A stretch of 40,585 nt of DNA from Gammaproteobacteria bacterium. GTDB taxonomy: Bacteria > Pseudomonadota > Gammaproteobacteria > Steroidobacterales > Woeseiaceae. A program made the translations under genes and the position numbers. The DNA lies in assembly GCA_029865385.1 (NCBI GenBank), contig JAOUGX010000025.1, positions 1 through 40,585 on the forward strand. Reading direction: 5' to 3'. The notes beneath the pieces are model-generated. The model was given only the letters and a program-made list of their open reading frames with translations. It was not told where the DNA came from and did not search any database. Of the stretch, positions 12,572-26,295 are shown piece after piece; the stretch's first letter is position 1; every line of letters begins with the position of its first letter.

Positions 12572-14509
12572 TCACGCCATCGCAATATCGCCTGGCGTCG
12601 CGGCAAGCAACGGTGGCAACGGGCAATCCAGGCTGGTACAGACGGCGCGCAGCAATTCTGCCTCGGCCAGCGTCAGCTGCCCGTCGTGGGCGATGCAGCG
12701 GCTCACCCCTTCGATCAGACGCTGGCGACCGCTGCTGTTGAGGCCGCCAAGCGTATCGAGACTTTTCTCCAGGGCCGTGATCCGCGTATCCGGAGCGACC
12801 GACGCATCCGTTTCGCGCGCCCAGTCGCCGAACGCGGCAATGCCGGCGCGAAAGGCATGCTCCCGGCTTTCTGCATCGTCATTGCCCTGGTCGGCGAGAA
12901 CCCGAATCAAGCGGACGGCGGCCAGCCGAATGGATTTCTTCGAACTGCGCACGGCGCGGCGGCTATGGCCCGGCGCGGCCGCCTGGCTCAGCTGGCTTGC
13001 CAGTATCCGGTAGTAACAAAACTCTCCCAACTCCACCTGGCCATCGGTTTCGATCAGGCGTTTCGCCAATTGCAGGAGAAACTCCAGCTGCGGCGTCGGG
13101 CGGAGTTTCAAGGTCGGGAAAGCGATCTCCAGCAATGGCAGGCGATACGCTGGTCCGATGTCGATCAGCTCAGCGTGAAAGCGTGCGACAAAGGACGCGC
13201 GATCATCGCCAAGCATGTCCTTAACGATACGCAATTGCCTTCCCGCGACATGTGAATCGGCGTGCATTGCCAGCGCCACTGCCAGCAGCAACGACAATTC
13301 GTGTGAATGTGCTGCGTCGTATAGATCTTCGGGGAACGATTTACGGAGCTGCTGTGCAAACTCAACGTGCTTTGCTTGCGGAACGCCGATGGCGTCTTTT
13401 ATTGAATCGGCGATTCCAGTTGCGTTGCCAACCGCGAGCGCCGCGCTAACTCCTGCGGTAAGTCCGGAAACCTGGCCGGGCAAGTCCGCCTCGTTGCGCC
13501 GGCGAATATCCCGTTTCGGGTAATCGCTTTCACGAAAGGACGGGTCAAGCGCCTGAATTCTTTCGATCAGCGGCGGATGCGTTGCGAACAGCGATGTAAG
13601 TTTCGCTATGCCACCGGCAAACAGCATGTGGCTGACTTCTTCCGGATCGACTGTGCGAATGTAGGAATGCGCCGAATAGCCACCGATTTTTTTCAAGGCA
13701 TTGGCGATGCCGTCCGTCTGGCGGGTGAATTGCACCGCGGAAGCATCCGCCAGGAACTCGCGTTGTCGAGAGACTGCTGCCTTGATTCCGCGTGCCAGCA
13801 ATACACCGATCCAACCGACGATTGTCAGGCCCAGGCCGACGACGAGCACGACAGGATGAGCGCCTTTTCGCCGGCTCGACAAGAAGCCGGCCCGATAACC
13901 ACCACGCAGGATGGTCTTGCCAACGAGGCCAAGGACCATGATGCCGAACAGCACTCCCATGAGTCGTATATTCAGGCGCATGTCGCCATTCAGAATGTGA
14001 CTGAACTCGTGCGCGATGACGCCTTGCAGTTCGTCACGATCCAGCGTCTCGAGCGTGCCGCGAGTCACGGCAACAGCAGCGTCGCCCGGCGCAAAACCTG
14101 CCGCAAACGCGTTAATACCAGGCTCTTCCTCCAGCACGTAGATCTCGGGAACGGGAAGCCCGGATGCAATGGACATCTCTTCAACGACGTTTCGCAGACG
14201 TCTGCGCAGCGGGTCGTGCACGTCCGGCGGAACGAGCGTGCCGCCCATGTCGATAGCGACCTGTCCGCCACCGCGTCCGAGGCGCGCCGTCTTGTAAGCG
14301 GTGGCGCCAAGAATAAAAAACGCTGTCGTTGCCGCTATCGGCAGCAACATCGTCGGATGCGTGATGATCTGGCCGTCGGCGAACAGATAGATCGCAGCAC
14401 CGAAGATCAGCGTTACGCCGGCCACGATTAGCAATGTGGCGATAAAAAAAACGACGATCAGCCAGCGGGTTACCCGCCGCGCCTTGTCCTGTGCGTCAAA
14501 AAAGTTCAC
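12572..14509 (-). CDS. M48-family (HtpX-like) membrane zinc metallopeptidase
   Basis: The 645-residue protein starts with GTG. Two N-terminal membrane spans lie at about residues 15-70. The zinc site HEFSH lies near residues 164-168, with the third ligand region SRQREFLADASAV further on and extra hydrophobic spans between. Such enzymes degrade misfolded inner-membrane proteins. The C-terminal 250 residues hold two acidic helical segments (ETDGQVELGE and AHDGQLTLAE) resembling TerB-type repeats, as in long M48 proteins found beside lemA. The lemA gene lies 53 bp upstream on the same strand, a pairing seen in many bacteria. Confidence 0.93.
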   Translation of the reverse strand: MNFFDAQDKARRVTRWLIVVFFIATLLIVAGVTLIFGAAIYLFADGQIITHPTMLLPIAATTAFFILGATAYKTARLGRGGGQVAIDMGGTLVPPDVHDPLRRRLRNVVEEMSIASGLPVPEIYVLEEEPGINAFAAGFAPGDAAVAVTRGTLETLDRDELQGVIAHEFSHILNGDMRLNIRLMGVLFGIMVLGLVGKTILRGGYRAGFLSSRRKGAHPVVLVVGLGLTIVGWIGVLLARGIKAAVSRQREFLADASAVQFTRQTDGIANALKKIGGYSAHSYIRTVDPEEVSHMLFAGGIAKLTSLFATHPPLIERIQALDPSFRESDYPKRDIRRRNEADLPGQVSGLTAGVSAALAVGNATGIADSIKDAIGVPQAKHVEFAQQLRKSFPEDLYDAAHSHELSLLLAVALAMHADSHVAGRQLRIVKDMLGDDRASFVARFHAELIDIGPAYRLPLLEIAFPTLKLRPTPQLEFLLQLAKRLIETDGQVELGEFCYYRILASQLSQAAAPGHSRRAVRSSKKSIRLAAVRLIRVLADQGNDDAESREHAFRAGIAAFGDWARETDASVAPDTRITALEKSLDTLGGLNSSGRQRLIEGVSRCIAHDGQLTLAEAELLRAVCTSLDCPLPPLLAATPGDIAMA

Positions 14510-14562
14510 GACAAAAGGCTATGAAATTCTGTCGATGTGGTGCAACGACCAGCCTTGCGCTT

Positions 14563-15153
14563 TCAGGTGAACTTTACGTCAGGCACCTGGCGTTTTTCGG
14601 CTGCTTCGATTTCGAGATAGGACGCAGGTTGGAATTGAAACATTCCCGCAATGATGTTGTTGGGGAAGTTTTGCACGGTGTTGTTGTACGAAAGCACCGA
14701 ATCGTTGAATGCCTGGCGTGAAAATGCCACCTTGTTTTCGGTACTCGACAGCTCTTCCTGGAATTGCATCATGTTCTGGTTGGCTTTCAGGTCCGGATAG
14801 GCTTCAGCCAGAGCGAACAGCCGTCCGAGCGCGCCGCCGAGCATGCCTTCTGCGGCACCGAGCTTTTGGATAGCGGCGGCATTCGACGGGTCCGCTTTTG
14901 CCGCATCGAGACTGGAAACGGCCGAATTCCTGGCACTTATGACGGCATCAAGTGTCTCACGCTCGTGTTTCATGTAGCCTTTGACGGCTTCAACGAGATT
15001 CGGAATCAGGTCATGACGCCGCGTCAATTGCACATCAATCTGGGCAAAGGCATTTTTGACCCGGTTGCGCGAATTCACCAGGCTGTTGTAGATACCGATC
15101 ACGAACAGCACCAGCGCAACGATTACGGCCAGGAATATCAGAAATGACGTCAC
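14563..15153 (-). CDS. lemA: LemA family membrane protein
   Basis: The 196-residue protein has one N-terminal membrane helix (FLIFLAVIVALVLFVIGIY) followed by the conserved LemA helical bundle (YNSLVNSRNRVKNAFAQID, LTRRHDLIPNLVE, AEAYPDLKANQNMMQFQEEL). The start was set at the GTG at 15153 because a near-perfect GGAGGTG ribosome site stands just upstream; the frame is open to 15213 but without such a site. Members are anchored in the inner membrane with the bundle outside, and are often co-encoded with M48 or HtpX proteases, as here. The exact function is unsettled. The start overlaps the divergent apbE start by 10 bp. Confidence 0.95.
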   Translation of the reverse strand: MTSFLIFLAVIVALVLFVIGIYNSLVNSRNRVKNAFAQIDVQLTRRHDLIPNLVEAVKGYMKHERETLDAVISARNSAVSSLDAAKADPSNAAAIQKLGAAEGMLGGALGRLFALAEAYPDLKANQNMMQFQEELSSTENKVAFSRQAFNDSVLSYNNTVQNFPNNIIAGMFQFQPASYLEIEAAEKRQVPDVKFT

Positions 15154-16202
15154 AATCCACCTCCAGGGTGTTTCAGCGTGGCAGCAAGGATAAACCCTGG
15201 CTTGCATTAACACTAGTCGGTGTCATGGCTGCTTTTGCAATGAATTCAAGTCCTTCGGCGGCAGAGTGGCAGGGTGATTCGCGGCCGATGATGGGCACCG
15301 AAATCAGCGTATACCTCTGGCATGACGATCCGGTGGCCGGCAAAGAGGCGCTTGAGGCCGTTTTCGACGAGGTTTCACGAATCAACCAGCTCATGAGTAC
15401 GTATATAGAGGACAGCCGGATTTCGCTGATCAATCGCGAAGCCGCCAACGGGCCGGTCGATGCCGGAGCGGAGCTGACCGGACTGGTTCTGCGGTCCCTC
15501 GATATCTCCGTTCTGACGCTTGGCGCATTCGACATCACCTACGAAAGCGTCGGCCAGCACTACGACTTTCGCGAGCGACGTCGCCCGGATGCGGCAACGA
15601 TCCAAAAGGAACTCGGCAGTATCAACTACAGGCTGGTCAACGCTGATCCGGTCAATAACACGATCAGCTTTGCGCAGCAGGGCGTGCGGATCAATCTCGG
15701 CGGCATCGCAAAGGGGTACACGGTCGAGCAGGGTGTGGAAATTCTGCGTCAGCGAGGAATTCGCAACGCGGTTGTTACCGCCGGCGGCGACTCGCGATTA
15801 CTCGGTGATCGACGGGGCCAGCCATGGATGGTTGGCGTTCGCGATCCGCGCGAGGAAGGCAAAGTGGCCGTGTCAATTCCATTGGTCGACGAGGCGATTT
15901 CGACTTCCGGTGATTATGAGCGCTACTTCGAGGAAGACGGCAAGCGATACCACCACATCATCCAGCCAGCCACCGGTGAGCCGGCAAATGGCGTTCATAG
16001 TGCAACCATCGTCGGGCCGGACGCTGTCATCACCGATGCACTCTCCACTTCGGTTTTCATCATGGGTGTCGACAAAGGGCTGCGCCTGATTGCCACATTG
16101 CCCGACTACGAGGGGATAGTCATCGACGCCGAAGGCCGTCTTTTTTATTCGGACGGCTTGCGTCCGCCGGATGTCACGGAAGCTCCTGACGAGCCTCAAT
16201 AA
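15144..16202 (+). CDS. apbE: FAD:protein FMN transferase (ApbE)
   Basis: The 352-residue periplasmic enzyme transfers FMN from FAD to a threonine of target flavoproteins such as Nqr/Rnf subunits. The N-terminus carries a Sec-type signal peptide (cleavage near PSAAEW) with no lipobox. Family blocks are MMGTEISVYLW, the GGIAKGYTVEQGVEILRQ helix, VVTAGGDSRLLG, AISTSGDYERYF, HHIIQPATGEP and DALSTSVFIMG. The ATG at 15144 has an AGGA site 9 bases upstream, but its first 10 bases overlap the lemA start on the other strand. A GTG at 15168 or an ATG at 15225 are alternatives. A strong terminator follows. Confidence 0.94.
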   Translation: MTSQSTSRVFQRGSKDKPWLALTLVGVMAAFAMNSSPSAAEWQGDSRPMMGTEISVYLWHDDPVAGKEALEAVFDEVSRINQLMSTYIEDSRISLINREAANGPVDAGAELTGLVLRSLDISVLTLGAFDITYESVGQHYDFRERRRPDAATIQKELGSINYRLVNADPVNNTISFAQQGVRINLGGIAKGYTVEQGVEILRQRGIRNAVVTAGGDSRLLGDRRGQPWMVGVRDPREEGKVAVSIPLVDEAISTSGDYERYFEEDGKRYHHIIQPATGEPANGVHSATIVGPDAVITDALSTSVFIMGVDKGLRLIATLPDYEGIVIDAEGRLFYSDGLRPPDVTEAPDEPQ

Positions 16203-16682: not shown

Positions 16683-17183
16683 ATGAAGGGACTAAAACCA
16701 ATACTGCTTGGAGCATTCTTATCAATCTTCGCACTGGGCAGTCTTGCCTCATCCGGCCTCATGGGCCAGCCGGCACCGGATTTTGCGCTGAAAAGTGCCA
16801 CCGGCCAGAACCTGCGACTCAGCGAATACCGCGGCGATGTCGTAATGATCAATTTCTGGGCGACGTGGTGTGGACCGTGCCGCCAGGAAATGCCACTCCT
16901 CGACGACCTCCACAACCGCTATGAGCGCGTCGGCTTCCGCCTGCTCGGCGTAAATATCGATGACGACTCGCGTCGTGCCATGCAGATGGTCGAAGAGCTG
17001 GGCGTAACTTTCCCCGTTTTGTTCGACGAGACCAAAGCCGTCAGCAAGCTCTACCAGGTTGAAGCCATGCCGGTAACCGTGATCCTCGATCGCGCCGGTA
17101 CCGTGCGCTATGTACACCACGGCTACAAGCCGGGCTACGAAGAACATTATCTGACCGAAATCCGTACGCTCCTCCGCGAGTAA
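16683..17183 (+). CDS. TlpA-like periplasmic thioredoxin
   Basis: The 166-residue protein starts at the ATG at 16683, preceded by AAGGA. A signal peptide or N-terminal anchor (about 1-22) is followed by an AhpC/TSA-Redoxin-type thioredoxin fold beginning GQPAPDFALKS. The active site is WCGPC (Cys63, Cys66) and the cis-proline loop is AMPVT. TlpA/ResA-like proteins reduce or exchange disulfides in the periplasm. It is the first gene of the ten-gene cluster, 33 bp before the next. The only conserved-looking lone cysteines in periplasmic parts of the downstream motor proteins are in the second ExbD and the TonB-like protein, which may be its targets (inference). Confidence 0.92.
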   Translation: MKGLKPILLGAFLSIFALGSLASSGLMGQPAPDFALKSATGQNLRLSEYRGDVVMINFWATWCGPCRQEMPLLDDLHNRYERVGFRLLGVNIDDDSRRAMQMVEELGVTFPVLFDETKAVSKLYQVEAMPVTVILDRAGTVRYVHHGYKPGYEEHYLTEIRTLLRE

Positions 17184-17216
17184 CAGGTGCTGCCGGCTGG
17201 CAGCAGGAGAAACGAA

Positions 17217-17831
17217 GTGACAGGCAAGAGAAATCGAATGGTCACGAACGCTGCCGCGATTGGCATCGTCTGGCTCGCAGGTATCGTCGCGGCTTTTGCA
17301 CAGGGATCTGCAATCCAGAACCCTGACGTCGTAGCCGCCAATGCCGCGTCAACCGAGGTAGACCAGGCACAGTCGCGAAGCCAGTTCCGCAGTCTCGATG
17401 AGGACGTTCAGTCTCTTAAAAAAGAGGTGCTGGATCTAAACCGCGACCTGTTCCTGCTGGAAGAAGAGCTGCTGTTTCCGGCCAACTCGCAGGTCGCGTT
17501 CTTTATTTCGATGGACGTCGGCGAATACTTCGAACTGGATTCGGTCACGCTCAAAATCGACGGCAAGGACGTCGCCAATTACCTGTACACGGAAAGGGAA
17601 GCGAAGGCGCTGTTGCGCGGCGGTGTGCATCGCGTCCACATGGGAAACCTCAAAGTGGGTGACCACGAATTAATCGCCGTGTTTACGGGAAAGGGACCGC
17701 ATGTGAGAGATTATCGGCGCGGTGCCACGATGACCTTCAACAAGGGCATCGGTGCCAAGTATGTGGAAATGGAAATCACGGACCGTGTCGCAAAACAGCA
17801 GCCGGAGTTCGTCATTAAGGAATGGGAGTGA
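17217..17831 (+). CDS. Secreted coiled-coil protein of the envelope-machine operon
   Basis: The 204-residue product has a signal peptide (cleavage near AAFAQ), then a coiled coil (about residues 53-80: DEDVQSLKKEVLDLNRDLFLLEEELL), then a beta-rich domain of about 110 residues. The GTG at 17217 was chosen because AGGAGA stands 7 bases upstream. It has no cysteines and no domain I can name. Tight linkage to TPR, TolQ and ExbD genes suggests a periplasmic or outer-membrane-facing part of the same machine. Its stop codon is in the same frame as the next gene, separated by one codon. Confidence 0.85.
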   Translation: MTGKRNRMVTNAAAIGIVWLAGIVAAFAQGSAIQNPDVVAANAASTEVDQAQSRSQFRSLDEDVQSLKKEVLDLNRDLFLLEEELLFPANSQVAFFISMDVGEYFELDSVTLKIDGKDVANYLYTEREAKALLRGGVHRVHMGNLKVGDHELIAVFTGKGPHVRDYRRGATMTFNKGIGAKYVEMEITDRVAKQQPEFVIKEWE

Positions 17832-17834
17832 TCC

Positions 17835-19709
17835 TTGATCGCTCGCCACGCAATCCGTCTTGTTCTATGGCTTGTCATTGCGTTGGCGTTGTTGCCGTTT
17901 GAGGCGCACGCAGCGAAGAACGACAAGAAGCCGACGATCGTCAAGGACCCTCACTACGGTGAGGTGTTGTTCCACTTCTACAAAGAAGATTATTTTCCGG
18001 CCATCGTGCGCCTGATGGCGGCGCAGCAGCAGACTCGCCTGCCGAATCACGACGCCGAAGCAGAACTGCTTCTCGGTGGACTGTACCTTTCGTACGGCCA
18101 TCACCTGCGGGCCGCCCAGATTTTCGAGCGTTTGCTCGCCGACAATGTCGATCCGCAGATCCGCGACCGCACTTGGTTTTTCCTCGCCAAGATCTGGTTG
18201 CAACGCGGATATCTCGCCGAATCAGAACAGGCGCTGGCAAACATCCAGAGCGAATTGCCGAAGGAGCTCGAGTCGGAGCGGCGCATGCTGCAGGCGCAGA
18301 TCATGATCGACCAGGGGGAGTACGACAAAGCGATTGAGTCCCTCAACGCATGGCGAGGCAAGAACGAATGGTCCAGTTACGCGAAATACAACCTCAGCGT
18401 TGCGATGGTGCGCAGCGGCCGGGTCAATTCCGCGGTCGACATGCTCGATGAGATCGGCAATCTGAATCCCTGGAACGAGGAATCACGTTCCCTTCGCGAC
18501 AAAGCCAATCTCGCGCTCGGCTACGCCTATTTACAGGACGGGCAGCCGCTGGCGGCGAAGCCGCCCTTGCAGCGGGTTCGCCTGTCCGGCCCGTTTTCCA
18601 ACAAGGCACTGCTCGGGGTCGGCTGGGCCGATGCAGAAACCGACAACTATAACCGCGCGCTGGTGCCGTGGATGGAATTGCGAGGACGCGATCTGTTGGA
18701 TCCGGCAGTGCAGGAATCGATGCTCGCGATTCCCTACGCGATGGCCAAGCTGGATTCCATCAGCCAGGCTGCCGATCACTACCTGAACGCTATCGAAGCG
18801 TTCTACGAGGAAACCTCCCGTATCGATCGAACTATCGAGCTGATCGAATCCGGCGAATTGTTCGATGACTTTCTCGCACAGGATCCGCTGGGCACAACCG
18901 GCTGGTACTGGAAACTCGAGGAGCTGCCGGAAGGACCGGAAGCGCGTTACCTGTTTCATCTGCTGGCGACTCACAAGTTTCAGGAAGGCCTGAAGAATTA
19001 CCGCGACCTGGCCTACCTGCTGAACAATCTCGAGGGATGGCAGCAGAGCGTCGATGTCTACCGCAGCATGATCGAGACCCGCGAGATCGCATACAAGCAG
19101 CGGCTGCCACGAGTTGAGGAAAGCCTTGCCAACGCGGACCTGGACGGCATGGTCCAGCGCAAGCTCGAGTTCGATGCACGACTCGACAGCATCGAAAAGA
19201 GCAGCGACTCGCTGGCCCTGGCAACCGAACAGGAGTTTGCGCTGTGGGGAGAGATTACCGCCATGGAGCGCAATCCGGCCCTGAAGGCAAACATTCCCGA
19301 AGCGGCAGAAGTCCGCCACAAGATCAAGTTGCTGAAGGGCGTCTTGCAGTGGGAGCTGGACAAGGAATTCAAGGTGCGCGCCGCAACGATCCGGCGCAAC
19401 CTGCGCCAGGCGGGCGAAGCACTGGTGGAAACGCAGCGATCAAGGCGCCAGGTCGACGAGTCGATGCGCAGGGAACCGTTGTTGTTCGCAGGCTTCAGGC
19501 AGCAGGTTGAGGGATTGAGCCCGAGTATAGATTCACTTCGCGACCGCGTTGATGTCTCGATGGCGATGCAGCGCGCGTTTCTGCGCGATATTGCCGTTGA
19601 CGAATTGCAGGCGCAGAAGCAACGTCTGGATACTTACACTGTGCAGGCCCGATTTGCGCTGGCCGCGATCTACGATCTCTCGTCGACCGTTGGAGATGCA
19701 TCGCGATGA
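17835..19709 (+). CDS. Periplasmic TPR protein of the envelope-machine operon
   Basis: The 624-residue protein starts with a TTG at 17835; GGAG precedes it, and a same-frame stop lies two codons earlier, so no longer start exists. A signal peptide (about 1-26, ending AHA) is followed by repeated helical TPR-like segments (AEAELLLGGLYLSYGHHLRAA, TWFFLAKIWLQRGYLAES, and others) to about residue 320. A more charged, coiled-coil C-terminal part follows (about 440-610). There are no cysteines. It overlaps the following TPR gene by 4 bases (ATGA), indicating translational coupling. By position it resembles TPR components of the Myxococcus Glt machinery, but a one-to-one assignment is not possible by eye. 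Confidence 0.88.
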   Translation: MIARHAIRLVLWLVIALALLPFEAHAAKNDKKPTIVKDPHYGEVLFHFYKEDYFPAIVRLMAAQQQTRLPNHDAEAELLLGGLYLSYGHHLRAAQIFERLLADNVDPQIRDRTWFFLAKIWLQRGYLAESEQALANIQSELPKELESERRMLQAQIMIDQGEYDKAIESLNAWRGKNEWSSYAKYNLSVAMVRSGRVNSAVDMLDEIGNLNPWNEESRSLRDKANLALGYAYLQDGQPLAAKPPLQRVRLSGPFSNKALLGVGWADAETDNYNRALVPWMELRGRDLLDPAVQESMLAIPYAMAKLDSISQAADHYLNAIEAFYEETSRIDRTIELIESGELFDDFLAQDPLGTTGWYWKLEELPEGPEARYLFHLLATHKFQEGLKNYRDLAYLLNNLEGWQQSVDVYRSMIETREIAYKQRLPRVEESLANADLDGMVQRKLEFDARLDSIEKSSDSLALATEQEFALWGEITAMERNPALKANIPEAAEVRHKIKLLKGVLQWELDKEFKVRAATIRRNLRQAGEALVETQRSRRQVDESMRREPLLFAGFRQQVEGLSPSIDSLRDRVDVSMAMQRAFLRDIAVDELQAQKQRLDTYTVQARFALAAIYDLSSTVGDASR

Positions 19710-22525
19710 TCTCCCGGCCATTCAGCAAAATCCTCTTACCGTTGCTGACCTGCGCGCTGGCGAGCCTCGCCACTGCCGCACCGAAAGAAAAAGAAACGAT
19801 CAAGAGCCTGGACAAGAAAACGGTCGAGGTTCGGCCCGGCAAGCTGATAGTCAACAGCTCGGACAAGGCCCGTGAAAACTACCGTGCGTTTCTCGATCTG
19901 GTATCGGACGATCCGGAGCTGCGCGCGGAGGCGATGCGGCGACTCGCCGATCTTGAGCTCGAGGCCAGCGAAGCGGAACAGCTTCGCGACAACATTGAAG
20001 CACTCGACTCCGCCGGGTACGAAAGCGCGACGTCCCTGTTTCACCAGCTGCTCGAGGCGTATCCGGACTACCGCCGCAACGACACGGTGCTGTATCAGCT
20101 GGCTCGCGCCTACGAAATTGCCGGCAAGACGGACGATGCGCTGCGAGTCCTGAACGAACTTGTCGATCGTTATCCGGAGACCGCGTTGATCGACGAGGTT
20201 CAGTTCCGGCGCGGCGAAATGCTGTTCCTGCGCAAGGACTATCACGAGGCGGAAGCGGCGTATCAGCGCGTCGTCGCGGCCGGCGACAGCTCACGCTTCT
20301 ACGAGCAATCCCTGTACAAGCTCGGCTGGTCGCAATTCAAGCTGGCCATGCACGAAGACAGTCTGCGGCCGTTCTTCGAGTTGCTCGATCGCAAGATCTC
20401 CGGCGTGGAAATACACGATGGCGAGGACCGACTCGCGGATCTGAGTCGGGCGGAACGCGAAATAGTCGAAGATACGTTTCGCGTCCTGAGCATCAGTTTT
20501 TCCTATATGGATGGCGCCGATAGCATTGCCAGCGCGCTTGCCGATCGTGGCTATCCTGAATACGGTTACGTGGTCTTCATGAATCTCGGCGACCTGTACC
20601 TGGAAAAGGAACGTTTCGTCGATGCGGCGGAAACTTACGAGGCTTTCGTCGAGCAGGATCCCTATCATCCGAAAGCGCCGCTATTGCAGGTTGAGGTAAT
20701 CGAAGCATACAAACTCGGCGGCTTCCCGACGCTGGTACTCGATGGCAAGAAAGGATTCGTCGAACGCTACGGCATGGACAGCCCTTTCTGGGATCGCAAC
20801 CCTCGTGAGACGAACACCGCGGTTGCTGCACACCTCAAGGCAAACCTCACCGACCTCGCCCAGTACTACCATGCCGAGGCGCAGAAAGATGGCAAGCGCA
20901 GCGATTACCAGGAGGCAGCGCGATGGTATCGCAAGTACCTGAATTATTTCCCGGGTGAGGCGGATTCGGCGAACACCAATTTCCTGCTCGCGGAGATCCT
21001 GTTCGAAAGCAAGGATTTCGATCTCGCAACGGACGAGTACGAAGCGACGGCGTATAATTACCCGCCGCACGATCACTCCGGCGAAGCAGGCTACGCTGCG
21101 ATACTCTCGTACCGCGCCTATGAAGAGACCCTGACCGGCGCCGAAAAGACCGCCTGGCATCAACGCTATCTCGACAGCGGGCTGCGTTTCGCGCAGACCT
21201 TCCCGGCGCACCCGGAGTCCGGCGCCGTCCTCACGACCGTTGCCGAAGACCTTTTCCAGCAGCGCCAGTTCGATCTTGCCATCGCTGTCGGCCAGGCCGT
21301 CGTAACCAAGCAACCGCCGGTCGAAGCCTCGCAGGCGCGCACGGCGTGGACAGTGATCGCGCATTCGCAATTCGACATCGAGCAGTTCGCGAACGCGGAA
21401 TCCTCCTATTACCAGCTGAGGAACTTCACGCCGGCGGATGACGCCAAAGCGCATCAGGAAATCAAGGATCGCATCGCTTCGTCGATTTACAAACAGGGCG
21501 AACTGGCCCGCGATGCCGGTGAGTTCGATTCAGCCGTTGCGCATTTCACGAGGCTCGGTCAGGCCGTGCCCGATTCGAAGATCCGTGCGACAGCCGAATA
21601 CGACGCTGCTGCCGTGCTCATCAATATGGCGGCCTGGGGCAGGGCAACTACGGTGCTCGAGGATTTCCGCCGCAATTATCCGGACAGCGAATACGTCGAC
21701 GACATTACTCAAAAGCTTGCTGTCAGCTACCTCGAAACGGGACGAAGTGCGGAAGCGGCTGGCGAATTCGAACGTATCGCAGCGGATCCGGACAGCAGTG
21801 ACGAGGTGAAGCGCGAGGCATTGTGGAAAGCCTCCGAGTTGTACCAGGCCTCGGCTGAAACCGCGTCTGAGCAGCGGGTATTGCAGAACATCGTCGCGCA
21901 GTATCCAAACCCGCTTTCCGAATCGATCGAAGCGCGGTTTCGCTTGTTGGAAATCACCGAGGCCAGTGGCGACAGTCGCGCACGCGACCGTATGCTGGCG
22001 GAGATCATCGAGGTTGATGCCACTGCCGGATCGCAGCGATCCGATCGCACCAGGTACCTCGCGGCAAAAGCTTCCCTCGAACTCGCGGAACCGGTTCGCT
22101 ACCGATTCATGACCGTGAAAATCACTCAGCCGCTGGCCGAGAGCCTGAAACTCAAGAAATCCTTAATGGAAGACGTGCTGAAAGTTTACGGCGAAGCTGC
22201 GGACTACGGTGTTGCCGAGGTGACGACGGCTGCGACTTTCCGCCTTGGCGAGGTGTATCAGCAATTCAGCCGCGACCTGATGGCGTCCGAGCGGCCGACC
22301 AACCTCGACGAAGCGGCACTCGAACAGTACGACATGTTGCTCGAAGAACAGACGTTTCCGTTCGAAGAGAAAGCCATCGAGCTGTTCGAGACGAATGCTG
22401 CCCGCACCGTGGACGGCGTTTACGACGAATGGGTGAAGAAGAGTTTTGACGCGCTGGCGAGCTTGTTGCCGGCCCGATACGCCAAACTGGAGCGCAGCGA
22501 AGATGTTGTTACAGCGCTTTACTGA
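19706..22525 (+). CDS. Large periplasmic TPR protein (AgmU/GltD-like)
   Basis: The 939-residue protein has a signal peptide (cleavage near ATAAP) and a long superhelix of TPR units. Examples are the FHQLLEAYPDYRRNDTVLYQLARAYE and EAEAAYQRVV segments near residues 110-195, FVDAAETYEAFVEQDP near 310, and further units to about 760. It carries one cysteine (Cys16) inside the signal peptide; the sequence around it (LLTC) is not a good lipobox. Size and TPR content fit AgmU/GltD-type proteins of the M. xanthus gliding complex, which sit in the periplasm. Its last 23 bases overlap the start of the next gene. Confidence 0.88.
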   Translation: MISRPFSKILLPLLTCALASLATAAPKEKETIKSLDKKTVEVRPGKLIVNSSDKARENYRAFLDLVSDDPELRAEAMRRLADLELEASEAEQLRDNIEALDSAGYESATSLFHQLLEAYPDYRRNDTVLYQLARAYEIAGKTDDALRVLNELVDRYPETALIDEVQFRRGEMLFLRKDYHEAEAAYQRVVAAGDSSRFYEQSLYKLGWSQFKLAMHEDSLRPFFELLDRKISGVEIHDGEDRLADLSRAEREIVEDTFRVLSISFSYMDGADSIASALADRGYPEYGYVVFMNLGDLYLEKERFVDAAETYEAFVEQDPYHPKAPLLQVEVIEAYKLGGFPTLVLDGKKGFVERYGMDSPFWDRNPRETNTAVAAHLKANLTDLAQYYHAEAQKDGKRSDYQEAARWYRKYLNYFPGEADSANTNFLLAEILFESKDFDLATDEYEATAYNYPPHDHSGEAGYAAILSYRAYEETLTGAEKTAWHQRYLDSGLRFAQTFPAHPESGAVLTTVAEDLFQQRQFDLAIAVGQAVVTKQPPVEASQARTAWTVIAHSQFDIEQFANAESSYYQLRNFTPADDAKAHQEIKDRIASSIYKQGELARDAGEFDSAVAHFTRLGQAVPDSKIRATAEYDAAAVLINMAAWGRATTVLEDFRRNYPDSEYVDDITQKLAVSYLETGRSAEAAGEFERIAADPDSSDEVKREALWKASELYQASAETASEQRVLQNIVAQYPNPLSESIEARFRLLEITEASGDSRARDRMLAEIIEVDATAGSQRSDRTRYLAAKASLELAEPVRYRFMTVKITQPLAESLKLKKSLMEDVLKVYGEAADYGVAEVTTAATFRLGEVYQQFSRDLMASERPTNLDEAALEQYDMLLEEQTFPFEEKAIELFETNAARTVDGVYDEWVKKSFDALASLLPARYAKLERSEDVVTALY

Positions 22526-23153
22526 AGTACGCATACGAAACGCGTTTCTCGTGCTGGCATGCAGCTTCGTGCTGGGTGCCTGTGCGTCCGGCCCGAAGCC
22601 GGCGGATTCCGCCCGCGCAGCTGAGGCTGGCCAGCCGGGCGCAATTCGCGAGGTGCCGGCCAAAGCGCAAACGCTTTACGAACAGGCTGTGTCGTCGATG
22701 GCATCAGGCGACTTCCTCGATGCGCAGCTGCGCTTTCAGGAATTTCTGCTGCAGTACCCGAACTTTCCCGGTGCTCATGTCAATCTTGCGATCATCTACA
22801 CGAGCAACGGCGACGACAAGGCAGTGGAAAACAGCCTGACCGACGCGCTCATCCTCGATCCGGAGCACCCGGCGGCACTCAACCAGCTCGGCATGCTGTT
22901 GCGTCGCCAGGGACAATTCGAGGCCGCAGAGTCTGCTTATATGAAGGCCGTCACAGCGCACCCTGACTACGCCTTGGCACACTACAACCTGGGCGTCCTC
23001 AATGAACTTTATCTGCAGCGGCTCGATATCGCACTGCAACATTTTGAACGCTACCAGGAGCTCGGTGGCGAGGATGAGCAGGTCACAAAGTGGATAGCAG
23101 ATCTCAAACGGCGCATTGGCAGCTCACAAAGAACCGCAAATGTGACGGAGTGA
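22503..23153 (+). CDS. TPR lipoprotein (AglT/GltE-like)
   Basis: The 216-residue lipoprotein has signal sequence FLVLACSFVLGAC with lipobox LGAC (Cys27). Three or more TPR units follow (QTLYEQAVSSMASGDFLDA, PAALNQLGMLLRRQGQFEAAE, YALAHYNLGVLNELYLQRLD). The ATG at 22503 has a GGAGCG site and lies inside the previous gene's 3' end; the frame is open further upstream, but without a signal peptide there. TPR lipoproteins accompany TolQ/TolR-type motors in Glt clusters and probably face the periplasm from the outer membrane. The +2 residue is alanine, so outer-membrane sorting is expected. Confidence 0.88.
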   Translation: MLLQRFTEVRIRNAFLVLACSFVLGACASGPKPADSARAAEAGQPGAIREVPAKAQTLYEQAVSSMASGDFLDAQLRFQEFLLQYPNFPGAHVNLAIIYTSNGDDKAVENSLTDALILDPEHPAALNQLGMLLRRQGQFEAAESAYMKAVTAHPDYALAHYNLGVLNELYLQRLDIALQHFERYQELGGEDEQVTKWIADLKRRIGSSQRTANVTE

Positions 23154-23158
23154 CAGGT

Positions 23159-23557
23159 ATGAAGTTGATTCTCGCGGGACTATTGCTGCTGGTTACTTCG
23201 GCGGGGCTTGCTCAGGAGGCGGTCGACGAGGAAGCCGTCGAAGCCAAGGAGCAGGCCGCGGAGCGCGACGAGCTCGAGCCCGGTGTTCCTTCAGCGGTTT
23301 TGTCCGCGGACATCCGCCGCAGTGCATCGGATGGGCGCGTGATGGACGAGCTGGACCTTGGCCGGACGGAGATTACCGGCAACCAGGAGTTACCCAAGGT
23401 GTTGTACATCGTGCCCTGGCAGAAATCGGATCCAGGCGACCTGACCGGGAAACCGGTCAACACGCTGCTAGACGAGGTGATGGCGCCGCTGGACCGGACG
23501 GAGTTCATGCGGCAGGTCGAGTACTACGACGACCTGTACGGCGAGACAAATGAGTAA
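23159..23557 (+). CDS. Small secreted acidic protein of the envelope-machine operon
   Basis: The 132-residue product begins at the ATG at 23159, with GGAG 8 bases upstream and 5 bases after the preceding stop. It has a clear signal peptide (MKLILAGLLLLVTSAGLAQ), then an acidic helical stretch (EAVDEEAVEAKEQAAERDE), then a compact region containing LPKVLYIVPWQKSDPG. It has no cysteine and no recognised domain. Its place between the TPR lipoprotein and TolQ suggests it works with the motor in the periplasm. Confidence 0.82.
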   Translation: MKLILAGLLLLVTSAGLAQEAVDEEAVEAKEQAAERDELEPGVPSAVLSADIRRSASDGRVMDELDLGRTEITGNQELPKVLYIVPWQKSDPGDLTGKPVNTLLDEVMAPLDRTEFMRQVEYYDDLYGETNE

Positions 23558-23598
23558 ATGGTTTTCAAGATCGATTTGATTTTAAGAGGAGTAATCAA

Positions 23599-24249
23599 AT
23601 GGACTTTTTAGGCGCCATAGTGCGTTTTTTCCAACAGGGCGGGATATTCATGTACCCGATCCTGATCGTGTTTGGCCTCGGGTTGGCAATTGCCGTCGAG
23701 CGCTGGATGTATCTGACCGTGTCCGGCGCCAGCAACCGTAGTCTGTGGAAAAAGATTGTGCCGTTTCTGAAAGCCGGCAATTTCCAGGAAGCGGCGTCGA
23801 TCACCGGCAAGTCGAAAGCAGCCATTGCGTCCATCCTGACTTACGGTCTGTACCGCGTTAAGTCGGCGCGCCGCCGGGATGACGTCGAAAAGGCAATGGA
23901 AGAGAGCCTGATGGAAGTACTGCCGCGCCTCGAAAAGCGCACGCACTACCTTGCCACGCTCGCCAATATTGCGACTCTGCTCGGACTGCTTGGCACGATC
24001 ATAGGTCTGATCAACGCCTTTACAGCCGTTTCCAACGCGAACCCGGCGGACAAGGCAGACATGCTCTCGGCCAGTATTTCCGTGGCGATGAATACCACGG
24101 CATTCGGCCTGATGGTTGCGATCCCGCTGCTGCTGATTCACGCATTGCTGCAGACCAAGACCAACCAGATCGTCGACAGTCTCGAGATGGCCAGCGTCAA
24201 ATTCCTGAACGCCATCACGGAACGCCAGCTGAAGCCGGCTGGAGCATAA
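23599..24249 (+). CDS. TolQ/ExbB/MotA-family proton-channel subunit (AglR-like)
   Basis: The 216-residue inner-membrane protein has a strong AGAGGAG ribosome site. It has three membrane helices, at about residues 16-37, 119-140 and 159-183, with the cytoplasmic loop between the first two, as in the MotA/TolQ/ExbB family. Conserved threonines and glycines line helices 2 and 3 (TLLGLLGTIIG, AMNTTAFGLMVAIP). Such subunits form a pentamer around ExbD/TolR helices and couple proton flow to motion in the periplasm. It stands directly before two ExbD genes, the same order of one TolQ and two TolR types as AglR-AglQ-AglS. Confidence 0.95.
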   Translation: MDFLGAIVRFFQQGGIFMYPILIVFGLGLAIAVERWMYLTVSGASNRSLWKKIVPFLKAGNFQEAASITGKSKAAIASILTYGLYRVKSARRRDDVEKAMEESLMEVLPRLEKRTHYLATLANIATLLGLLGTIIGLINAFTAVSNANPADKADMLSASISVAMNTTAFGLMVAIPLLLIHALLQTKTNQIVDSLEMASVKFLNAITERQLKPAGA

Positions 24250-24252
24250 GCA

Positions 24253-24765
24253 ATGATTCGCAGCCGCAGAGGCGGCCATCGTCGGCACAACGCCGATACG
24301 GCCGAACTCAACATTACGGCGTTCATGAACCTGATGGTGATTCTGGTTCCGTTCCTGCTGATTACGGCGGTGTTCTCGCGTCTGGCGATTCTCGAGCTGA
24401 ATCTGCCAGGCTCCTCTACCGAGCCCGTCGATCCGCTGGAACAGACTTTCCAACTGGAAATCACCGTCAGGAAAGAACAGATCGAAGTCGGTGACAGGAA
24501 TGTCGGCGCGCTGGGCGTCTATCCGAACTCGGATGACGGCTACGACTTCGAGGCGTTGAGCACGAAACTTTCGGATATCAAGAAGCGATACCCGGAAAAG
24601 ACTGACGCTGCGATCCTGCTGGAAGCGGAAATTCCCTACGACACGCTGGTCCAGGTAATGGACCGTGTTCGTGTCGCGCAGAAAATCGAAGAAGCAAACA
24701 TCATCCGGAGCGATCTGTTTCCGGATATTTCGATCGGCGATGCGCCGGTCCTGGACGGAGCCTGA
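24253..24765 (+). CDS. ExbD/TolR-family subunit with Asn in place of the membrane Asp
   Basis: The 170-residue protein has a short basic cytoplasmic tail, one membrane helix (about 19-42, ELNITAFMNLMVILVPFLLI) and a periplasmic domain, as in ExbD/TolR. The helix position that normally holds the proton-carrying Asp (as in PxxDxxxxLL) is Asn26, codon AAC at 24328-24330. The second ExbD gene 3 bases later keeps its Asp. The pair may therefore work as an asymmetric dimer in the TolQ channel. The domain carries no cysteine. I rate the family call as firm and the functional meaning of the substitution as inference. Confidence 0.92.
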   Translation: MIRSRRGGHRRHNADTAELNITAFMNLMVILVPFLLITAVFSRLAILELNLPGSSTEPVDPLEQTFQLEITVRKEQIEVGDRNVGALGVYPNSDDGYDFEALSTKLSDIKKRYPEKTDAAILLEAEIPYDTLVQVMDRVRVAQKIEEANIIRSDLFPDISIGDAPVLDGA

Positions 24766-24768
24766 GCC

Positions 24769-25305
24769 ATGGTCAAGTCACGACGTGCGCGACGCATGGA
24801 TCGGCACCACAAGCGCGGCCGGCTCGGCGGCGCACTGAATCTCGTATCGCTGATGGATATTTTCACGATCCTGGTTTTCTTCCTGCTGGTGAATTCTTCC
24901 GACGTCGAAGTGTTGCCGAACGCGAAGGACATTCAGCTTCCTGAATCCATTGCCGAGGAAAAAGCCAAAGAGACCGTCGTCATCCTGATCGGAGACGAAG
25001 ACATCATCGTGCAGGGCGTGCCCGTTGCGAAAGTATCAGAGGTTATGAAGACCAAGGGCAACGACATTCCGCAGCTGCGGCAGGCGCTGCTGTCGCAGAA
25101 CGATCGCGTTCTCCGAAAAGAAGCGCAGGACAACATCGCCGGCCGCGAAGTAACGATTATGGGTGACAAGGACATCCCGTATCGATTGCTGAAGAAGGTC
25201 ATGGCGACCTGTACGGAGTCGGAGTACGGACAGATTTCGCTGGCGGTACTGCAAAAGAGTTCAGACAAGCTGGAAGAAGTTGCCCAGCTCAGTGCTGCCC
25301 GGTAG
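24769..25305 (+). CDS. ExbD/TolR-family subunit with intact membrane Asp
   Basis: The 178-residue protein has a strongly basic N-terminus, a membrane helix (about 23-42, LNLVSLMDIFTILVFFLLV) with the expected Asp30, and a periplasmic ExbD domain ending ISLAVLQKSS. It should carry the proton-responsive residue of the motor. A single periplasmic cysteine, Cys148, lies in the MATCTESEYGQ segment. It starts 3 bases after the other ExbD gene. By analogy with Myxococcus AglQ/AglS the two ExbD proteins probably share one TolQ ring. Confidence 0.94.
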   Translation: MVKSRRARRMDRHHKRGRLGGALNLVSLMDIFTILVFFLLVNSSDVEVLPNAKDIQLPESIAEEKAKETVVILIGDEDIIVQGVPVAKVSEVMKTKGNDIPQLRQALLSQNDRVLRKEAQDNIAGREVTIMGDKDIPYRLLKKVMATCTESEYGQISLAVLQKSSDKLEEVAQLSAAR

Positions 25306-25338
25306 TGGCGGACAGGGAACAGGTTTAGGAGTTACGGA

Positions 25339-26295
25339 TTGGATATTCCTTACTACAGAGAATACGAGCTGCCCTGGACAAGCTCGTCCGGTCAGGAACA
25401 GAAGTTTCGCCGTTTGCTTGCGATCGTTTTCGCTGTGCTGTTTTTCCTGGGCGCAGTGTGGCCGTTTCTGCCAACGCCGGCTGTCGACCCGAATGCCATT
25501 GAGGAAATTCCACCGCGTATCGCCAAGCTGCTACTCGAGCAGAAGCCGCCGCCTCCGCCGCCGCCGAAAGTAAAGGAACCGGAGCCGGAGCCCGTCAAGG
25601 ATCCGATCAAGGAGCCTGAGCCGGAAAAGGTTGTCGAAAAGAAACCCGAGCCGCCCAAGCCCGAACCGGAACCGATCGACATGCAAAAGGTTGCGCGCGA
25701 ACAGGCGCAGGCGGCATTGTTGCCCTTTACCGAGGATCTGGCGGCGCTTGCAGACAGCGACGTGCTGGAAAAACTTGCCGACGAACGTCCGTTGACGGCG
25801 TCGGTTGGCCAGGCAGCGCGTAACGAGCGCTCTATGATCACGTCTAAGGCAGGCGCGGCCAGCGGCGGAATCAACACGGCCAGCATGAGTCGCAACACCG
25901 GCGGTTCAGGCCTTGCGGGTCGCACGACATCTCAGATCGAAAGCCCGGTTGCTGCTGTCGGCCAATCCGCCGGCGGTGCCAGGCGCACCGGCGAAAGCGG
26001 CAAGGCATCGCGAAGTCGCGAGGAAATCGAACTCGTATTCGACAAGAACAAGGGCGCAATCTTCGCCCTTTACAATCGCGCCTTGCGCGCCGATCCGACA
26101 CTGGAAGGCAAGCTCGTATTGCGCCTGACCATTGCACCTTCCGGTGAAGTAACGTTTTGCGAAGTCGTGTCCAGTGAACTCGGCGACCAGGACCTCGAGC
26201 AGAGGCTGGTGCAGCGGGTACGGATGTTCCGTTTCGAAGCAAAAGACGTCGAAGCAATTACCACCACCAAACCGATAGATTTCTTCCCGGCCTGA
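25339..26295 (+). CDS. TonB-like protein with AgmX/PglI C-terminal domain
   Basis: The 318-residue protein starts with TTG; AGGAG lies 8 bases upstream. A cytoplasmic tail is followed by one membrane helix (about 25-45), then a Pro/Glu/Lys-rich spacer (about 69-112, including a run of eight prolines) that can span the periplasm, as in TonB. A low-complexity Ser/Gly region follows. The C-terminal domain (about 225-318, FDKNKGAIFALYNRAL, LVLRLTIAPSGEVTFCEVVSSELGD) matches the AgmX/PglI type found in gliding-machine proteins. A lone Cys274 sits in that domain. It closes the operon and probably passes motor force to the outer membrane. Confidence 0.9.
   Translation: MDIPYYREYELPWTSSSGQEQKFRRLLAIVFAVLFFLGAVWPFLPTPAVDPNAIEEIPPRIAKLLLEQKPPPPPPPKVKEPEPEPVKDPIKEPEPEKVVEKKPEPPKPEPEPIDMQKVAREQAQAALLPFTEDLAALADSDVLEKLADERPLTASVGQAARNERSMITSKAGAASGGINTASMSRNTGGSGLAGRTTSQIESPVAAVGQSAGGARRTGESGKASRSREEIELVFDKNKGAIFALYNRALRADPTLEGKLVLRLTIAPSGEVTFCEVVSSELGDQDLEQRLVQRVRMFRFEAKDVEAITTTKPIDFFPA

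Follow-up and report, generated by a model that had tools for sequence, protein, structure and literature searches.

The 40,585-base stretch analysed here, referred to as the window, is contig C101 of a gammaproteobacterial genome of 3.92 Mb in 198 contigs and contains a nine-gene operon, cc to agmX. It is fairly probable that these nine genes encode an envelope-spanning force transducer driven by the proton motive force, of the AglRQS-Glt core-complex kind, and that in most carriers its outer-membrane end is supplied by a second gene set, the outer-membrane/redox block. The core complex itself was already known. The tie to the block, which includes the thioredoxin gene beside the operon, and the occurrence of asparagine in ExbD-1 and aspartate in ExbD-2 are new. 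In the sampled genomes a barrel, heme and flavin-related gene set almost always accompanies the operon, and this is a new clue to its nature. Many of the closest named relatives of the window, as judged by cc, are Woeseiaceae metagenome-assembled genomes (MAGs).

A preliminary description of the window had joined ten genes at 16683-26295, on the forward strand and with tight or overlapping spacing, into one machine resembling AglRQS/Glt. All ten open reading frames (ORFs) were open at the given place and strand, and the arrangement was borne out by ORFs and families. The spacing between neighbours ranged from a 23-base overlap (tpr2/lipo, assuming that lipo starts at 22503) to a gap of 41 bases. 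The first gene of the nine-gene core, cc (17217..17831, +), encodes a signal or anchor helix, a coiled coil and an Ig/transthyretin-like beta sandwich. On the same strand follow tpr1 (17835..19709), encoding a secreted tetratricopeptide repeat (TPR) protein of 624 amino acids (aa), and tpr2 (19706..22525), encoding a secreted TPR protein of 939 aa with YbgF-like repeats (TIGR02795, 127 bits), both assigned by TPR families and synteny. The next two genes are lipo (22503..23153), coding for a TPR lipoprotein (TPR families; lipobox LGAC), and acid (23159..23557), coding for a secreted acidic protein without a family whose C-terminal stretch is conserved in an alignment of 29 rows. The motor genes are tolQ (23599..24249; AglR-like subunit; PF01618, 108 bits, and tree), exbD-1 (24253..24765; PF02472, 65 bits) and exbD-2 (24769..25305; PF02472, 62 bits). 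The operon ends with agmX (25339..26295), encoding an AgmX/GltG-like transducer of 318 aa with one membrane helix, a proline-rich linker and an AgmX/PglI C-terminal domain (NF033768, 63.2 bits, cut-off 40). Signal peptides and the lipobox were judged by eye, and membrane helices by a hydropathy scan.

The neighbourhood survey suggested in the preliminary description showed that the order of the nine genes is kept. Counting that of the window, 40 genomes were covered, and 30 of them had cc. In 26 of the 30 loci from relatives all nine genes occurred in the order cc-tpr1-tpr2-lipo-acid-tolQ-exbD1-exbD2-agmX on one strand; the other four (L041, L051, L063, L067) stop at a contig or region end, and no exception in order or strand was found among the 30. 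The named loci, which are the best 80 of 512 encoding a cc relative and come in part from the same genomes as the relatives' loci, contained the complete ordered nine in 55 cases. A further 24 stop at most 148 bases from a contig end, and the sole remaining one, L165, was without detectable lipo. Twenty class-wide loci comprised 12 with all nine genes (tpr1 of L199 in two pieces), four with eight (L183 without lipo; L184, L190 and L194 without a separate tpr1), one that is cut (L180) and three incomplete ones (L186 and L187 from one genome, and L189). L189 has block genes and the genes from cc through acid, while tolQ, both exbD genes and agmX were missing at the locus. The tpr2 ORF of L184, L190 and L194 is about 1,400 aa long, and with no tpr1 ORF of its own beside it the two may be fused. 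The common order and strand in divergent loci is more than chance. The supposed co-conservation of all ten genes thus held for the nine from cc to agmX, and the thioredoxin lies outside the conserved unit; cc and acid are constant members of it. In a survey of 369 gammaproteobacterial genomes, cc was detected in 80, which represent 61 of 272 genera and 43 families. In a phylum-wide sample it occurred in 14 of 398 genomes, all 14 from the same class, and a search of plasmids gave no match.

The likeness to AglRQS/Glt also held, but it had been published before. The relevant passages of PMC3169522 (Luciano 2011) describe gammaproteobacterial aglRQS together with gltD, gltE, gltG and gltC in one region and call this set, which has no known function, a 'core complex', with several copies in some gammaproteobacteria and one extra gene absent from Myxococcales. 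As in that complex, one TolQ, two TolR-like subunits, a TonB-like transducer and TPR genes lie in one region here, and the AgmX/PglI (GltG-type) domain of the transducer is a core-complex trait. By its TPR make-up and the gene set, tpr1 is a candidate counterpart of GltC; tpr2 and lipo are candidate counterparts of GltD and GltE. The operon differs from the published description in having two constant extra genes rather than one, either of which may be the published extra gene, in the asparagine of ExbD-1 and in the tie to the outer-membrane/redox block, which the passages on the core complex do not mention. In the open PMC literature, judged from titles, the opening of abstracts and counts of terms and with most subscription papers outside it, no paper joined the core and the redox block.

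An ordinary Tol-Pal or Ton motor was ruled out by the curated cut-offs and by the location of the genome's true TolQ elsewhere; a grouping with such systems, which would have refuted the preliminary description, was not seen. The window's TolQ scored 68 bits against the TolQ equivalog (cut-off 221) and 45.6 bits against ExbB (206.2), and the two ExbD proteins scored 28.6 and 23.4 bits against TolR (127.3); the score against the ExbD equivalog was 30.3 bits (216). The true TolQ (285 bits) is encoded on contig C6 of the same genome, and a PomA over its cut-off on C110. A tree was built from 66 TolQ-like rows (window included twice), and in it the TolQs of the operon fell into a group of 59 with support 100/99, apart from the genome's true TolQ, with long outgroup branches that make placement unsure. 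This group also took in the genome's own C197 sequence on a branch of length 10, which was taken as an artefact. The general plan of TolQ/ExbB, TolR/ExbD and a transducer with a TonB-like C-terminus is common to Tol-Pal, Ton and the operon; the operon differs in the unreached cut-offs, in its two ExbD types and in the membrane helix of the transducer, which contained no histidine in 27 of 27 rows. A TPR gene, a TolQ, two different TolRs and a transducer are also shared with the TPR-TolQ-TolR-TolR-vWA clusters of the PVC group described in the passages cited from PMC12204202, but the transducer there carries a vWA domain as well as a histidine that binds the motor, unlike the helix found here. 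Additional TolQ/ExbB-like genes occur in the window's genome as two pairs (one long, one short) on contigs C27 and C31 (L004, L005, L007, L008).

The two ExbD proteins differ at the proton-carrier site. Asn26 of ExbD-1 (codon 24328-24330) replaces the aspartate of the membrane helix, while ExbD-2 has kept Asp30 (codon 24856-24858). With some genomes counted twice, this site was Asn in 82 and Asp in 20 of 102 ExbD-1 rows, and Asp in all 100 ExbD-2 rows. The Asn/Asp counts for ExbD-1 were 1/0 for the window, 15/1 for type I relatives, 11/0 for type II (the divergent operon treated below), 16/0 for class-wide loci and 39/19 for named loci. The 20 Asp rows consisted of five named Steroidobacter or Peristeroidobacter, 14 other MAGs among the named loci and one from genome G033; the Steroidobacter-named MAG L158 has Asn. 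In S. gossypii, S. agaridevorans and P. agariperforans both ExbD proteins carry Asp. In a six-gene FastTree, whose labels were read by eye and several of whose deep forks are weak, the seven Asp rows included formed one clade (support 1.0) within the window's side, and Asn therefore looks like the older state within this group. If asparagine cannot carry protons, as is understood for MotB and TolR, an ExbD-1 homodimer would be dead. Together with the lasting retention of both genes this favours a heterodimer, and the axle is probably formed by ExbD-1 and ExbD-2 jointly. In M. xanthus AglQ and AglS both have the membrane aspartate, and whether they form homo- or heterodimers is given as unknown (passages of PMC9389320). 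Because ExbD-1 is without this residue, the operon does not encode a plain AglRQS motor.

The preliminary description had assigned no role to cc, acid and the thioredoxin. The first two remain proteins without a family, now recognised as constant parts of the unit, while the thioredoxin belongs to a second block consisting of a heme lipoprotein, two paralogous barrels, the thioredoxin, DUF3570 and ApbE. Beside the operon in the window lie an ApbE-type FAD:protein FMN transferase (15144..16202, +; PF02424, 261 bits, cut-off 25.6), outside the motor operon, and the TlpA/ResA-type thioredoxin (16683..17183, +; AhpC-TSA, 110 bits), with a signal peptide and the motif WCGPC. In many families an HZS-alpha heme lipoprotein, an SH3-barrel, a barrel, the thioredoxin, DUF3570 and in some cases ApbE are found upstream of the operon; in other families the thioredoxin sits amid ApbE/DUF3570 genes. 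At L220 and L221 the heme, SH3-barrel, barrel, thioredoxin and DUF3570 genes lead directly into cc, and L217 shows the same run from the edge of the heme gene onward; ApbE was not found at these three loci. At L219 the run is on the opposite strand and ApbE adjoins cc. ApbE, thioredoxin and DUF3570 occur together in relatives, for example at L050, L056, L172 and L191. The thioredoxin stays adjacent to the operon in Steroidobacteraceae, and at several named loci the heme and SH3 genes lie farther upstream on the other strand.

Upstream sequence of 2.5 kb or more was available for 71 named loci; a thioredoxin relative was present within 6 kb upstream of cc on either strand in 67 of these, and an ApbE relative in 46. 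Within 3 kb upstream of the operon on the same strand, thioredoxin was found at 96 loci, ApbE at 65 and DUF3570 at 13, and downstream at none. For the 20 class-wide loci the corresponding upstream numbers were thioredoxin 4, ApbE 3, DUF3570 5, SH3 4, barrel 4 and heme 1; downstream of the operon no block gene was found in the 47.7 kb searched (upstream 58.6 kb). Three isolates of Steroidobacter or Peristeroidobacter and one MAG, picked by name, all had neighbouring barrel and heme genes. The operon, the barrel and the heme lipoprotein are held by Steroidobacter gossypii S1-65, S. agaridevorans SA29-B and Peristeroidobacter agariperforans KA5-B.

Co-occurrence was counted over the same 369 genomes as in the cc survey. 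The barrel profile matched 56 genomes, all of which had cc (Fisher p 1.7e-47, a value that overstates the association because related genomes are not independent), and the 30 families with the barrel were all among the 43 with cc. The DUF3570 profile matched 94 genomes; 56 exceeded 250 bits (block type), and 56 of these 56 had cc. A heme lipoprotein was found in 63 genomes, with cc in 51 of the 52 over 100 bits and in four of the 11 weaker ones. G072 is the only sampled genome with a heme lipoprotein relative above 100 bits and no cc match. Any one of barrel, block DUF3570 or heme lipoprotein was present in 59 genomes, 58 of them with cc. Of the 56 genomes with the barrel, 30 had it less than 6 kb from the best cc match and 11 at 6-15 kb; it was farther away on the same contig in two and on another contig in 13.

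Several results weigh against an outer-membrane end formed by the block or against a core of the published kind. None of the three block genes was found in 22 of the 80 cc genomes, which means that the core can exist without the block. In the window's own genome the block is split, with ApbE and thioredoxin beside the operon and the heme lipoprotein, SH3-barrel, barrel and DUF3570 together on contig C167. DUF3570s of other types served as a control; of the 53 genomes that contain them, 26 also have cc and 27 do not (odds ratio 4.7, p 2.1e-6). Since these are thus enriched in cc genomes too, the association may partly reflect lineage or lifestyle. The asparagine of ExbD-1 is not universal, as its Asp rows show. 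On window proteins the GltG model scored 38.0 bits (cut-off 650) and the GltE model NF033758 34.6 bits (225; lipo). Of the profile checks proposed in the preliminary description, those for GltG, GltE and GltJ thus stayed far below the cut-off.

The first three of these results also fit a core that transduces force on its own, as a Tol-Pal-like tether or as a Ton-like energizer, with a separate redox block that is merely nearby and co-inherited. The same applies to a second, divergent operon, type II, which made up 12 of the 30 relatives' loci (L058-L069) and whose cc is 36-42% identical where it matches. Ten of the 12 were in genomes also holding the first kind. Seven type II loci had 2.5 kb or more of upstream sequence, and at none of the seven was the thioredoxin or another block gene found there. 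In the six-gene tree type II grouped with L182, L192 and L193 in a clade (support 1.0) that has no linked block genes. The type II AgmX ORF is often about 470-500 aa long instead of 318, with the extra residues before the membrane helix. No genes were clearly kept around the type II operons, where the gene caller often preferred reverse-strand ORFs over real genes. However, block genes hardly ever occur without cc, unlike the other DUF3570s, which do so in 27 of 53 genomes, and in the six-gene tree operons with linked block genes are found to either side of the midpoint, which makes the tie either old or recurrent. A stand-alone core is considered possible but not likely. The contrast between the named and the type II loci (67 of 71 against 0 of 7) also rules out the thioredoxin as a part of the motor.

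The two barrels of the block recall, in their plan, the outer-membrane barrels GltA and GltB of the M. xanthus gliding machine. All 13 barrel rows matched TIGR04565 'OMP_myx_plus', and three scored singly reached 135-165 bits (cut-off 60). The SH3-barrel rows matched the same model in 11 of 14 cases at E 0.001, the first with 33.5 bits, which is below the cut-off. Both profiles are homologous (hhalign 96.5%, E 1e-9). A comparison of the barrel profile with solved structures gave one match at E 0.17, which was not used. GltA and GltB are paralogous barrels of the outer membrane; the two stabilise one another and interact with GltC (passages of PMC4488436). The pair found here, which lies on another contig in the window's genome, follows the same plan and is a candidate counterpart. 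According to the passages on distribution in PMC3169522, GltA/B occur only in Myxococcales and Bdellovibrionales. The same source offers the speculation that gliding may be found in every bacterium possessing AglRQS together with GltD, E, F, G, C, A and B, and carriers of operon and barrel pair might on these grounds move on surfaces like M. xanthus. The motor plan, the TPR scaffold and the AgmX/PglI domain are common to both, and a paralogous barrel pair occurs with each, GltA/GltB in M. xanthus and a TIGR04565-like candidate counterpart here. The M. xanthus machine, however, has further GltF, H, I, J and K components and, as noted above, an aspartate in both TolR-like subunits. The GltG model, with 650 positions against the 318 aa of the transducer, stayed below its cut-off throughout the genome of the window (best 57 bits). 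The ten window proteins yielded only a 35-bit GltJ match to agmX (cut-off 450), and MglA, AglZ, GltF, H, I, J and K were not searched genome-wide. The ApbE/DUF3570/heme block is not mentioned for the M. xanthus machine in the literature passages cited. The preliminary description had seen no gliding-specific genes; candidate outer-membrane partner genes do exist, in this genome on another contig. A gliding motor proper is not supported, and gliding is regarded as improbable. A purpose other than motility is known for the Nfs spore-coat system of M. xanthus, a Glt paralogue driven by AglRQS (passages of PMC3858216), although Nfs borrows that motor and acts on a spore-coat polymer, unlike the operon studied here.

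The heme and flavin-related genes raise the question of electron transfer. The motor could drive assembly, positioning or turnover of an outer-membrane heme/flavin conduit for extracytosolic electron transfer, which would be compatible with the favoured reading of an envelope-spanning force transducer. The co-occurrence of the block with cc is consistent with this, as are two or more CxxCH motifs in the heme lipoprotein at 14 of the 22 loci listed, several of which were cut or misread. The block further contains ApbE, thioredoxin and DUF3570, and such genes lie together in the ApbE-DUF3570-thioredoxin-DUF4266 clusters described in PMC8238504, whose passages report that DUF3570 is flavinylated by its ApbE in Chlorobium luteolum. 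Here, by comparison, a distinct DUF3570 clade occurs with barrels and a heme lipoprotein, and the terms ExbD, TPR and hzsA have no occurrence in the main text of that paper. The exact flavinylation motif [ST]GA[ST] was present in only 4 of 13 aligned block DUF3570s, in one of them off the aligned place, and the window genome's own protein reads SSAS, so that flavinylation is unsure. A second DUF3570 of another type in this genome (L205, contig C126) has the motif TGAT and its own thioredoxin-like and ApbE-like neighbours. The 22 cc genomes that do without the block also speak against a role in electron transfer, and electron conduits are not otherwise known to need such a motor. We regard this role as a tentative possibility only.

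From the observed gene content, synteny, co-occurrence and Asn/Asp pattern we infer the complex itself, its heterodimer, the direction of force and the process served, with all mechanics, as follows. Proton flow through the TolQ-like ring and ExbD would turn or shift an axle of two different ExbD proteins. The axle would move the AgmX/GltG-like transducer, which would carry the force through the wall and hand it to a periplasmic scaffold of the two TPR proteins, the TPR lipoprotein, cc and the acidic protein. This scaffold may link to the barrel pair (one with an SH3 domain), the HZS-alpha heme lipoprotein and DUF3570 in the outer membrane, and the thioredoxin and ApbE beside the window operon may serve the latter block. 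Candidate outputs are surface transport, gating of the barrels and upkeep of a redox conduit.

Neither cc (17217) nor the acidic protein (23159) matched Pfam or NCBIfam at E 0.1. The cc protein is conserved across 31 aligned rows, and its AlphaFold model (mean pLDDT 83) has a helix, a long helix at 36-86 compatible with a coiled coil and, starting at residue 91, a beta sandwich. Foldseek gave no match at E 0.001 or better, solved structures none at E 1, and the fold search only generic beta sandwiches. Kinship with the PepT2 extracellular domain (VIA, best Z 9.5) was not claimed, as many rows scored near 8. The acidic protein was modelled poorly (pLDDT 66) and is probably largely disordered. 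A scan for promoters and terminators gave 3 and 12 sites, compared with 3.6 and 11.8 in shuffled sequences. Upstream of ApbE, at 12572-15213, genes for a LemA-like protein and an M48 peptidase lie on the opposite strand; relatives of both were upstream of cc in 44 of the 71 named loci, and a further LemA relative is located near the block on contig C167 (L206).

It is possible, though far from assured, that the core complex powers an outer-membrane machine, not described so far, coupling force to extracytosolic redox chemistry, in which a one-aspartate heterodimeric motor would act via TPR scaffolds on a GltA/B-like barrel pair, the heme lipoprotein and DUF3570. The findings bear on the open question of what the complex did before the gliding of Myxococcus arose from it. 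If the complex is partnered by the block in most carriers, some fifteen genes now form a defined set to work on. The Asn/Asp pair would provide a natural test of a motor with one proton carrier and of a heterodimer of two TolR-type subunits.

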